DNA from: Peptococcaceae bacterium
GTDB lineage: Bacteria; Bacillota; Desulfitobacteriia; Desulfitobacteriales; Syntrophobotulaceae
Length of the DNA: 64,000 nt
Assembly (NCBI GenBank): GCA_009783315.1
Contig: WRHI01000001.1
Span: forward strand, 1-64,000
Direction: 5' to 3'
This document shows positions 391 through 58,017 of this stretch, piece by piece (position 1 is the first letter of the stretch; every line of letters starts with the position of its first letter). The position numbers and the translations under genes were made by a program. A model generated the notes under the pieces. It was not told where the DNA came from, ran no database searches, and saw only the letters and a list, made by a program, of their open reading frames with translations.

Positions 391-746
391 GGGTGCATAT
401 TTAAAAAGTGCATGAACTGACGATAAGGATAAGCAGAGCTTTCTGCCGCGGTGTTTTCCCGCAGCTCAATGGTGAGTTGGAGGCAGATACCGCGCTGGCC
501 AGTAACAGGGACGCGTCAGGGGTTGGGGAGCGGCAGACTCCAAAAGCCCGCGTATTTTTCTCGCCTTTCGGGGGCTGCGTCGGGCGGTGAGGCGCTTGGA
601 GTCTGCCGCTCACCAAACCCTACCTTGGGACTGTTACGAGCCCACATAATATCCATCTCCATTCACCATTCGGTTGCTGGAGAACCCCGCAGTAGATATT
701 TCTATTTATTTTTTTGTCGCTTCCTGCACTTTTTAAATATGCACCC
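391..746. mobile_element. MITE-like non-coding element (family A), 22-bp perfect TIRs, possible 9-bp TSD
   Basis: GGGTGCATATTTAAAAAGTGCA (391-412) and its exact reverse complement (725-746); TCCTAATCC at both 382-390 and 747-755; internal 16-bp inverted repeat 528-543/596-611. Confidence 0.8.
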
Positions 747-861
747 TCCTAATCCCTAACGGTTGCGGATATCGCCTCCGCTAGGGTATACTTAAAACAG
801 GCGCACACTTCTGAGGAATAAGGAGATAGAAGGATAAGATGTTCAGAAGGCTAGGAACGCA

Positions 862-1380
862 ATGAACGGTTTTCTCTTGTTGATTCCGCTGTTCTTGATC
901 AGATACGGCTTGTTGTACGCCATGAGCAAGGACGCTTTCAGCCGGGCCGCTTTTGTTCCTCCGATGGTTGGGCGCAAGAAGATTATTCTTCGGCTCAATC
1001 AGTTTTCAACCATCGGTTTTTTCGTGTATCTGCTTTTTGTTCGTGTTATTCTGGGATCGTTTCTGTTTTATCTGGGCATATTCATCTATAGCGCCGGCAT
1101 AGTGCTGCATGCCGTTTCGACAGTAAATTACGCGGCTCCGGCGGAAAACGGCCTCAACACCAACGGCCTTTACAGGGTTTCCCGCAACCCAATGTATGTG
1201 GCGTATTTTGTTTTTTTCCTGGGGTGCGTATTCCTCACGCAATCCCTTGTGTTGCTGGTGTTGCTTCTGGTCTTTCAAGTAACGAACCATTGGCTTATCC
1301 TGGCGGAGGAAAGATGGTGCGTCGCTGAGTTTGGAGAGGTTTATATTCAATACATGAAAAAAGCAAGGCGCTACTTGTAG
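862..1380 (+). CDS. Isoprenylcysteine carboxyl methyltransferase-like (ICMT/PEMT) membrane methyltransferase
   Basis: Multi-TM ORF with GLYRVSRNPMYVAYFVFFLG motif. Confidence 0.7.
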   Translation: MNGFLLLIPLFLIRYGLLYAMSKDAFSRAAFVPPMVGRKKIILRLNQFSTIGFFVYLLFVRVILGSFLFYLGIFIYSAGIVLHAVSTVNYAAPAENGLNTNGLYRVSRNPMYVAYFVFFLGCVFLTQSLVLLVLLLVFQVTNHWLILAEERWCVAEFGEVYIQYMKKARRYL

Positions 1381-2104: not shown

Positions 2105-3862
2105 ATTAATAGTGAAACCAATTCTAATTTCTTGCGAACCTTGATTGCGGGCGACCTGAAAGAAGGCCGCCATGGCGGTCGTGTGCAAACACGTTTTCCG
2201 CCGGAGCCTAACGGTTATCTGCATATTGGTCATGCTAAGTCCATCTGCCTTAATTTTGGCTTGGCCCAAGAGTTTGACGGCCTGTGCAGCCTTCGTTTTG
2301 ACGACACCAATCCCGCTAAGGAAGACGTTGAGTATGTTAATTCCATTAAGGAAGATGTGCGTTGGCTCGGTTTTTCTTGGGGAACACAGGAATATTTCGC
2401 TTCTGACTATTTTGAACAACTGTATGATTTGGCCCTGCGCCTGATTGGTGACGGCGATGCTTATATCTGTGATCTTACACCCGAAGAGATCCGCCGCACC
2501 CGCGGCACGCTTACGGCCCCGGGTCAGGAGAGTCCCTTCCGCGGCCGTTCCGTTCCCGAAAACCTTGATTTGTTCGCGCGTATGCGCGCCGGCGAGTTCG
2601 CCGCGGGCAGCAAAGTTCTGCGGGCCAAGATTGATATGGGCTCTCCTAATTTGAATATGCGCGATCCTGTGCTGTATCGCGTGCTGCACGCGTCTCATCA
2701 CCGCACCGGCGACTCTTGGTGTTTGTATCCTTTGTATGATTTTGCCCATCCGCTGTCTGACGCGCTGGAAGGTGTGACACATTCCTTGTGCACACTGGAA
2801 TTTGAAGATCACCGACCTCTTTATGACTGGCTTGTGGACAGGCTTTTTCCAGAGGATCGGCGCCCCCGCCAATATGAATTTGCCCGGTTGGACATGACCC
2901 AAACGGTTATGAGCAAACGTAAGCTGCGCCAGTTGGTTGAAGACAATGTTGTCTCCGGCTGGGATGATCCTCGTATGCCGACTCTGTCCGGGTTACGCCG
3001 GCGGGGTTATTCCCCTTCAGCCATCCGGGCGTTCTGCGAGCGTATCGGGGTAGCACGCGCCAACAGCGTTGTCGATGTCGCCATGTTGGAGCATTGCGTG
3101 CGGGAGGAACTGAATCTGTCCGCCAAACGTGTCATGGCTGTGCTGGAGCCTCTTAAACTGGTTATTACCAATTATCCGGAAGGGCGTTATGAGAAGCTGA
3201 TCGCCGACAACAACCCCGAAGATCCGTCTGCGGGTACGCGGGAAATTGTTTTTGGCCGCGAGTTGTTTATTGAGCAGGCTGATTTTCTGGAAGATCCACC
3301 CAACAAGTTTTTTCGACTGAAACCAGGTGGGGAAGTGCGCCTTAAACACGCTTACATCATACGCTGCGACCATGTTGTCAAAGACACCGGCGGCGCCGTC
3401 AGCGAAATCCATTGCACTTACGATCCCGACAGCAAAACCGGTGGCGCCACAAGCGGCCGAAAGGTTAAGGGCACCCTGCATTGGGTGGCGCGGGATCACG
3501 CTTTGCCGGCGGAAATCCGCCTTTATAACTGCCTCTTCACGGAAACCATGGCCCCCCCAGAAATCCTGTCGGCAGCATCGGCGGACGAAACAGCAGAGAA
3601 CGCTGTCTTGGGTTTTAACCCCCAGTCTCTGGTTTGTTTACAAGGTTGGGTGGAAGCCAGTCTTCGTGACGCCACTTACGAGGATCGCTTCCAGTTCCTG
3701 CGCCAGGGTTATTTCTGTCTGGATACCAAAAACACGCCGGACGATAATGACGGGGAAAAGGACGCGTTTGACGCTGCAACTTCGCCTGCTGTCACCGCCA
3801 CAGACTTGGTGTTTAACCGTATTGTCAGTCTGCGGGACAGCTATAATACCCACAGAAAATAG
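2105..3862 (+). CDS. glnS: Glutaminyl-tRNA synthetase, putative AUU start
   Basis: [45 protein letters not shown]; aaggaggt at 2090-2097, 7 nt before ATT at 2105; no ATG/GTG/TTG/CTG in frame between TAA at 2075 and TTG at 2132. Confidence 0.93.
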
Positions 3863-3988
3863 AGACACGACACAAACACAAAGAGGACGTCCCAATCATG
3901 GGCGCCCTCTTTAGTAATAAACCATATAACCGATCTGTGCTCAGCCACGCTGATGACAATCAGCAGTGCTGATCACATTCAGTCATAG

Positions 3989-4186
3989 TTAGATCTTCTG
4001 TCCGTTTTTCAGGCTTTCTTCGGCAAAGCGAACTAAACGTTTTGTCATTTCGCCACCAACGGATCCGTTTTCACGGGAAGTGATGTCCGGACCAAGTTTT
4101 GCGTGCAATTCGTTAGCCACTTCATACTTGAGCTGATCCAAAGCGCCTGTGCTGCCAGGAGCCGCACTTTGACGTGTATTAGCCAT
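3989..4186 (-). CDS. Alpha/beta-type small acid-soluble spore protein
   Basis: MANTRQSAAPGSTGALDQLKYEVANELHAKLGPDITSRENGSVGGEMTKRLVRFAEESL; start trimmed to 4186 at a good RBS. Confidence 0.92.
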   Translation of the reverse strand: MANTRQSAAPGSTGALDQLKYEVANELHAKLGPDITSRENGSVGGEMTKRLVRFAEESLKNGQKI

Positions 4187-4227
4187 GTCGTTTTCCCTCC
4201 TTTTACGGCAAATTATCGTAACAGGCT

Positions 4228-4257
4228 TATTATCTGTGTTCGTTCTAAAAATACTCA
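4228..4257 (-). promoter_or_regulatory. Possible sigma-G-type promoter for the SASP gene
   Basis: Minus strand TGAGTA - 17 nt - GATAATA upstream of the SASP RBS; consensus match by eye only. Confidence 0.3.
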
Positions 4258-4377
4258 GGTAAATCTTGATAATGGTGTATAATAAAAGGCAACTGACACA
4301 ATTCTTGCAGTTTTGTTTAGTATACGTTCTCGGCAGCAGCCCACTCTTTATCATTATCAACAAAAGGAGCCATTGTC

Positions 4378-4968
4378 ATGCCTGAACCGGCATCGGAAGT
4401 TCAGCCTCCGTCGATGATTCAGCTTACACGTAAGGATTTCATACTGAGTCTGGCGCTGACGACGCTGTTGTGTCTTGTTGCCTCTGGCTTGATTTTACTG
4501 TTTGCGCCTGTCACTATTATCGACCATTTGCTGATGCTGATGGCAGGCGCGCCGTCAACAACCCTGGATTATGTTCTGATCATTTTTTTCCCGGCGACAA
4601 TGATCACTCTGGAATGGCTGATTTTTCGTTATGTCCCACACCGTTATTGGTTTGAACCCATCAACGATCAATTGGCTCAAAGATTCAACATAGCTGAACT
4701 CGCGCTGATTTTCGCCGTAGGCGCCGTCAGCGAAGAACTGCTTTTTCGTGGCGTGCTGCAAAACCTTTTCGGGTTCTGGGCCGCGACTGTTCTTTTTGTG
4801 CTCATTCATGTGCGTTACCTGAAGCGGCCTGCGCTCCTCGCCGTCATACTTGCCTTGGCTTGCGGTTTGGGCGGCGTGTATCTGCTCTGCGGCAAGCTTT
4901 GGGTCACGATTCTATGTCATTTTTTGCTCAACATTGGCGCTATTCTGATGCTGAAAAAGCGAATTTGA
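4378..4968 (+). CDS. CPBP family intramembrane metalloprotease
   Basis: SEELLFRGVLQNLFG and C-terminal TILCHFLLNI in a multi-TM protein. Confidence 0.8.
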   Translation: MPEPASEVQPPSMIQLTRKDFILSLALTTLLCLVASGLILLFAPVTIIDHLLMLMAGAPSTTLDYVLIIFFPATMITLEWLIFRYVPHRYWFEPINDQLAQRFNIAELALIFAVGAVSEELLFRGVLQNLFGFWAATVLFVLIHVRYLKRPALLAVILALACGLGGVYLLCGKLWVTILCHFLLNIGAILMLKKRI

Positions 4969-5042
4969 TCAAATCGGAGCGATATGATAAGATAACTCTC
5001 ATGCATTAAACAAAAGAAACATCAGAAGAGGAGAGATCGAAC

Positions 5043-57054: not shown

Positions 57055-57357
57055 GCATTCGGGGTTCTCCCGCAACCGAATGGTGAATGGAGATGGATAT
57101 TATGTGGGCTCGTAACAGTCCCGAGGTAGGGTTTGGTGAGCGGGAGACTCCAAAAGCCCGCGAACTCTTTTCACCTTTTGAGGTTGCGTCAGGCAGAGAG
57201 GCGCTTGGATTCTCCCGCTCACCAAACCCTACCTCGGGACTGTTACTGGCCAGCGCGGTATCTTCCTCCAACTCACCATTGAGTTGCGGGAAAACACCGC
57301 GGCAGAAACCTCTGCTTATCCTTATCGTCAGTTCATGCACTTTTTAAATATGCACCC
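57055..57357. mobile_element. Second copy of family A MITE-like element, inverted and truncated at its left end
   Basis: Retains TGCACTTTTTAAATATGCACCC (57336-57357); internal 42-nt inverted repeat 57112-57153/57205-57246 with one mismatch. Confidence 0.8.
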
Positions 57358-57459
57358 TTGTCTGGCCCCCTGGTTGTGGCCCAGGCCCCCCCATGCTATA
57401 CTTATTAAAGAGAAGAATTCTCAACGCACTGTCATCGTCTTACTGAGGAGGAAAAGCTC

Positions 57460-58017
57460 ATGAATATCGCGGATTTTTGGCAAATTATCGATAAGGCGCG
57501 GACAAGCGCGGACAGCTGGGAGGACATGCATGATCCGCTGGTCGCCTTGTTGGCTGAATTGGAAACAGCAGATCTCATGCTGTGGAAACAGGTATTTGAT
57601 GAGTACCAGCGTCTTTCCTATAAGGACAAGTTGTGGGCAGCGGCTTATGTGATCAACGGCGGCTGTTCAGACGACGGATTTGACTACTTTCGCGGCTGGC
57701 TGACCGCCCAGGGCAAAAAAATCTTTCTGAACGCTTTGGCTGATCCTGAATCCCTGGCTGATGTGGAGTCCTGTGCAGAAGGTGTGGAATATGAGGATAT
57801 CCTGGGCGCGGCATCAGACGCGTTCTTTCAGAAATATGGTTTATCAAGAGATTATAATGTGTTTCACCATAAATTAGACGAATACCCTTTGCCGGAGCAG
57901 CTGAAAGCCGCAATGGCTTCTGAAATCCGCTACGCCGCCGATATTGACGTCGAATGGGATGACGCTGACCTTCCGAAACTTCTGCCAAAATTGTGCCAAA
58001 CCTTCGATTGGGAATGA
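57460..58017 (+). CDS. DUF4240 domain protein
   Basis: FWQIIDKAR, LWAAAYVINGGCSDDGFDYFRGWLTAQGKKIF. Confidence 0.85.
   Translation: MNIADFWQIIDKARTSADSWEDMHDPLVALLAELETADLMLWKQVFDEYQRLSYKDKLWAAAYVINGGCSDDGFDYFRGWLTAQGKKIFLNALADPESLADVESCAEGVEYEDILGAASDAFFQKYGLSRDYNVFHHKLDEYPLPEQLKAAMASEIRYAADIDVEWDDADLPKLLPKLCQTFDWE

Follow-up and report, generated by a model that had tools for sequence, protein, structure and literature searches.

A hairpin-forming miniature element, probably derived from an ISKra4-family insertion sequence, lies upstream of predicted sigma-A promoters in a Peptococcaceae bacterium

Results

The element and its surroundings

The window, that is, the whole stretch of 64,000 nucleotides analysed here, is taken from contig 1 of a Peptococcaceae genome (3.0 Mb in 151 contigs, 93.7% complete). 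Close to its start lies a 356-bp element, followed by a promoter and a gene of the phospholipid methyltransferase family; a second, incomplete copy stands in front of another promoter and gene near the far end. The features are as follows.

382-390, no strand: left 9-bp target-site duplication, TCCTAATCC, equal to 747-755; the 9-bp rule holds family-wide
391-412, plus strand: terminal inverted repeat (TIR), end of arm A; exact 22-mer with family matches genome-wide
413-505 (approximate limits), plus strand: arm A subterminal sequence, an inverted relative of arm B, about 75% alike
506-635 (approximate limits), no strand: hairpin core module (stem 528-543/596-611), also seen in decayed elements and, lacking these ends, in a repeat of the sister species
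636-724 (approximate limits), minus strand: arm B subterminal sequence; with the TIR, its outer ~55 nt are ~80% identical to the left end of the autonomous IS
725-746, minus strand: TIR, end of arm B; exact 22-mer
747-755, no strand: right 9-bp target-site duplication, TCCTAATCC, equal to 382-390
763-792, plus strand: targeted sigma-A-type promoter, TTGCGG (763-768), 18 nt, TATACT (787-792); the first base of the -35 box is 17 nt from the end of the element, a position enriched family-wide
862-1380, plus strand: gene 3' of the promoter, phospholipid methyltransferase family (Pfam PF04191)
~57060-57357, minus strand: second family copy, B end lost, core in the opposite orientation; arm A TIR at 57336-57357
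57374-57402, plus strand: promoter adjoining the second copy, TTGTGG, 17 nt, TATACT; the -35 box likewise begins 17 nt from the end of its element; coordinates taken by reading the sequence
57460-58017, plus strand: gene after the second-copy promoter, DUF4240 (Pfam PF14024)

The 22-mer GGGTGCATATTTAAAAAGTGCA occurs at 391-412 on the plus strand and again at 725-746 on the minus strand, where shuffled sequences lead one to expect 0 matches; all 22 of 22 bp agree, so that the perfect TIRs described in a first, sequence-only reading are exact. The inverted repeat continues well past these 22 bp: the arms 391-426/711-746 are 86% complementary, and in other copies element positions 1-153 match the reverse complement of 206-356 at 74-75%. 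That reading also placed a hairpin in the interior, and here it was half right: the 16-bp stem 528-543/596-611 is exact, but it forms only the tip of a far longer inverted repeat, the entire 356 nt folding as a single long imperfect hairpin (-188.9 kcal/mol, z -13.3 against shuffles). The internal ORFs (60, 102 and ~71 aa) match no Pfam family, in keeping with their having been judged spurious and the element devoid of a transposase. No terminator-like site was found, and an Rfam search returned no RNA family in the element, its sole match being the 3' end of a group II intron at 31-106 (RF00029, 63.9 bits), which stands without an intron body because the contig begins there. Two further repeats accompany the element in the window. 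The G+C-rich stretch 120-260 (CCCCTCCGGCTGGGGTCTGATC and neighbours) recurs beside or inside other copies (L042, L073, L079 and L129) and is probably another dispersed repeat, and short tandem GGACAATGGACAAT repeats at 1905-1960 immediately follow a RidA-like gene, with words that recur in other flanks of the genome.

A high-copy family with 9-bp target-site duplications

The 22-bp end has 132 matches in the host genome at up to 3 mismatches, versus 0 for a reversed control pattern. Our census of copies covers the examined stretches of this genome, and its counts are lower bounds. We collected 117 distinct end-to-host junctions (58 of arm A, 54 of arm B and 5 others), which are dispersed and have unrelated flanks. 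To look for target-site duplications, the 9 bases beside one junction were compared, in the right orientation, with the 9 bases beside another over all junction pairs. Seventeen pairs agree exactly, versus 0, 0, 0, 1, 0, 0 and 0 when the comparison is shifted by 1 to 7 bases and none in a same-strand control; 5 more pairs agree with one mismatch (0-2 in controls), while widths of 8 and 10 bases give no comparable excess of matched junctions. The 9-bp duplication, which had been put forward as possible, is therefore real. Every one of the 17 exact pairs joins an A end to a B end, mostly on different contigs, as for one element split by the assembly.

The two copies of TCCTAATCC that adjoin the element at 382-390 and 747-755 had raised the suspicion of coincidence, since their flank is of low complexity. 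We reject the idea that this duplication is a by-product of the CTTCTCCTAATCC repeats: other copies have 9-bp duplications of their own in unrelated sequence, which lays that doubt to rest. Some two-ended copies have no matching duplication (L091, L082 and L035), which recombination or misassembly could explain; each flank of L091 matches a different contig, so that this copy is either recombinant or misassembled.

The 22 matched junction pairs (17 exact, 5 with one mismatch) imply between about 60 and 95 insertions, with at least about 60. Median identity to the consensus over the first 100 nt is 99.3% for arm A and 97.6% for arm B, and the burst of transposition is therefore recent. Of the 117 junctions, 79 lie at most 350 bp from the end of a contig; much of the assembly fragmentation is thus owed to the family, which accounts for many contig breaks, and its duplications can be used for rejoining and scaffolding the host contigs. 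About 12 pairs of contig ends are marked by an identical 9-bp duplication together with complementary A and B arms. Other repeats were seen within copies: in L079 (contig C74) the arms enclose a 200-bp piece of another repeat, and in L080 (contig C64, 18375-19125) an insert of ~500 bp between the arms appears by eye to be part of another IS.

Outside its own genome the exact 22-bp end was found in two Peptococcaceae bins only, Nt197P3bin79 and Nt197P3bin37 (the same-genus genomes G002 and G001), whose prefix Nt197P3 presumably points to a termite-gut source. Among 61 genomes of the same family or order, element-like sequence was confined to the genus, apart from one weak 30-bp match in G055. 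Viral carriage was considered and rejected: none of 2.9 million viral contigs contains an exact match to the 22-bp end.

Insertion upstream of sigma-A promoters

When the outward flanks are aligned, TTGACA-like and TATAAT-like boxes appear at nearly constant places. We scored them with a generic sigma-A matrix built from the textbook consensus and not fitted to the flanks of the element. A -35 box begins 17 nt from the element end, leaving a gap of 16 bp, at 36 of 117 junctions, versus 1.19 expected per position (Poisson P ~4e-40). Starts at 16, 18 and 19 nt are seen at 20, 19 and 13 junctions, while positions 31-200 average 1.19 with a maximum of 5; a plain count of consensus matches and an inward-facing control agree with this spacing. 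Insertion is thus targeted to predicted sigma-A promoters, often exactly 16 bases upstream. The sequence-only reading had overlooked this fixed distance, as well as the fact that the interior hairpin is a repeat module which decayed elements contain too.

Both copies in the window fit the spacing, with TTGCGG-18-TATACT before the phospholipid methyltransferase-family gene and TTGTGG-17-TATACT before the DUF4240 gene, as do 7 of 8 sister-species sites of the related IS and its derivatives. Either end may face the promoter: a -35 box starts at 16-19 nt in 49 of 112 A or B junctions (26 of 58 on the A side, 23 of 54 on the B side), and among 22 paired sites the promoter is on the A side only in 10, on the B side only in 7, on both in 0 and on neither in 5. 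An outward ORF of at least 90 aa starts within 400 bp at 25 of the 26 promoter-bearing junctions with enough flank, at a median of 108 bp from the element, and also at 29 of 40 junctions without a promoter call.

The search for empty sites suggested in the first reading gave one orthologous site, L004, and on one side only. Promoter and gene are conserved there in the sister species and the DNA examined holds no element, the promoter side being the one that could be aligned; at L004 the promoter therefore predates the insertion.

An autonomous partner and the origin of the interior

A transposase with the same 22-bp TIR, the other counterpart proposed in that reading, is present in the sister species. 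Sequence WRJI01000045 (L056, 3232-5075) holds an 1844-bp IS with the same 22-bp ends and the 9-bp duplication ATTCAGTCG, the only complete autonomous copy assembled. Its transposase scores 263.3 bits with the ISKra4 profile NF033572, above the cut-off of 205, and 114.8 bits with ISLre2, below the cut-off of 200; in a search of 84 genomes of the class at E 1e-60, the closest of the other transposases shares 44% identity with it. Its coding sequence is divided between two ORFs (3670-3912 and 3879-5033) that overlap in a -1 relation at an A-run, and a -1 fusion of the two extends the profile match from 65-422 to 17-422 (274 bits), although in a single copy a programmed shift and an inactivating mutation look alike. 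As a separate observation, L056 3670-5033 joins a likely -1 frameshift with promoter targeting, two traits that the 2014 survey ties to different groups (PMC3942029).

In the host assembly (93.7% complete, with contigs that end in this repeat itself) we found transposase fragments and no intact transposase. Relics of the IS nevertheless carry the ends and transposase pieces of the same family. On contigs C12, C36 and C78 such pieces directly adjoin the hairpin core, and on C28 inspection by eye suggests an IS right end, then what is likely the left subterminal region of the IS, then the core and the first part of arm B, without a transposase. In blastn, IS positions 1-55 align with window positions 746-693 at ~80%, which pairs the left end of the IS with the outermost ~55 nt of arm B.

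We rejected the possibility that the interior is pure IS sequence, since the match of its core lies in a repeat of the sister species, not in the IS. This repeat of ~150-250 bp (L060, L063-L070) had no ends of the miniature element beside it; in the host genome it recurs at L190-L209, and the stem is kept between the species although the bases differ (TCC/GGA versus CCC/GGG). Older, decayed host copies (L195, L196) already join the core to IS-like ends, an arrangement with which two origins would be compatible: a clean capture of an unrelated host repeat, or an old IS-linked sequence.

Discussion

Dispersed copies, 9-bp duplications at the exact edge and a transposase-bearing relative with the same ends bear out the first impression of a miniature inverted-repeat transposable element (MITE). 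We hold with high confidence that 391-746 is a non-autonomous, promoter-targeted MITE derived from an IS of the ISKra4 family, whose transposases are of the prokaryotic Mutator-like type (p-MULT 4). Acting in trans, a transposase would bind the two near-identical ends and excise or copy the element, probably through a circle, the intermediate shown for relatives (PMC3942029). It would be guided to promoter regions, possibly via promoter-bound RNA polymerase, and either end could face the promoter because the ends are symmetric, as elements with almost perfectly matched ends are known to insert either way round (PMC3942029). With the -35 box at -35, the element end falls near -52 relative to the start site, and the core promoter elements therefore stay intact. 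Insertion just upstream thus probably spares the promoter and costs little, letting copies accumulate, and this mildness may lie behind the high copy number.

The alternative that fares best, though we consider it improbable, is a structural or regulatory repeat (terminator-like element, attenuator or small RNA) that selection maintains in front of genes, its mobility being a thing of the past. A very strong hairpin, a consistent placement upstream of promoters and a core fold kept in the sister species despite differing sequence would all suit such a repeat. However, measured from the element end the position is fixed to within about 1 base in spite of differing flanks and genes, most duplications are exact, the copies are nearly identical, neither an Rfam family nor a terminator-like site was found, and a transposase-bearing IS has the same target spacing.

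A promoter-targeted MITE might also be moved by a different transposase, unrelated to ISKra4, a view that gains something from the lack of an intact ISKra4 transposase in the assembled host but that we find highly improbable: 22-bp ends, duplication length and promoter spacing are all as in the ISKra4-type IS of the sister species, and the host's own IS relics bear ISKra4-type ends with transposase pieces. Still less probable is indiscriminate insertion followed by the survival of those copies alone that sit between genes and do no harm there. Purifying selection would likewise purge most insertions within genes, but it would not fix a spacing (36 junctions at 17, 19-20 at 16 and 18, ~1.2 beyond 30) that is shared by the sister-species IS copies and has been described for related transposases (PMC3942029). 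A spread of copies through segmental duplication or recombination instead of transposition, which the mismatched flanks of L091, L082 and L035 might suggest, has a negligible chance of being right, given that the flanks of the copies are unrelated and 17 sites have exact 9-bp duplications of their own.

The targeting is no new principle: it comes with a transposase family that is already known. Insertions of TnGBS, ISLre2 and ISKra4-group elements lie upstream of sigma-A promoters, 16 bp being the commonest distance (Guerillot et al. 2014, PMC3942029). The ISKra4 group has inverted repeats of 18-39 bp and duplications of 8 or 9 bp, and in its promoter-targeting lineage more than 20% of sites have a sigma-A promoter 13-17 bp from the IR junction (PMC3942029). 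Our MITE shares with this group (p-MULT 4) the transposase family, inverted ends that match almost perfectly, a 9-bp duplication and upstream insertion in both orientations (PMC3942029), but it lacks a transposase gene, measures only 356 bp and has a long hairpin for an interior. The phyla listed for p-MULT 4 in that survey omit Firmicutes, whereas the present host is a member of the Peptococcaceae, and the two-ORF, -1 frameshift transposase of the partner IS is a trait tied there to the ISMich2 group (PMC3942029). The TnGBS conjugative elements and ISLre2 (p-MULT 3) likewise insert upstream of the sigma-A -35 box, in their case by 15-17 bp, but mostly in one orientation, whereas the MITE uses both; the partner transposase, moreover, is far below the ISLre2 cut-off (115 versus 200 bits).

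The survey makes no mention of MITEs (PMC3942029), and a search of open-access text found no paper describing ISKra4 or ISLre2 MITEs. A non-autonomous version of the promoter-targeting family, present in many copies and with a hairpin inside, therefore appears to be new. The IS-derived bacterial MITEs MITEAba12 (PMC6382973) and those of Coxiella (PMC5896051) are reported to be similarly short, non-coding and multicopy, with inverted ends; the present family, by comparison, is an ISKra4 one whose target lies at a fixed place relative to the promoter. Plant Pack-MULEs (mentioned in PMC3942029) offer another parallel: they are non-autonomous, of the Mutator type, contain acquired sequence and favour the 5' ends of genes. 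Here, by contrast, the host is bacterial, and a repeat hairpin takes the place of a fragment of a host gene inside the element.

A further possibility, which we think unlikely, is that the MITE family now acts as a dispersed regulatory module, its shared 350-nt hairpin standing 16 bp upstream of the -35 box at dozens of unrelated promoters; if so, the shared structure or a hairpin-binding protein could tune or insulate many genes together.

Promoter targeting by p-MULT elements has been known from full IS and conjugative elements, and here a minimal non-coding element has the same spacing at dozens of sites. That an element sharing little beyond the ends keeps the spacing suggests that promoters can be found with no more than the ends and a transposase acting in trans. 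The symmetric ends and the balanced orientation give independent support to the published idea that end asymmetry sets orientation, and a cargo-free element of 356 bp is a handy substrate for studying promoter recognition by a DDE transposase.
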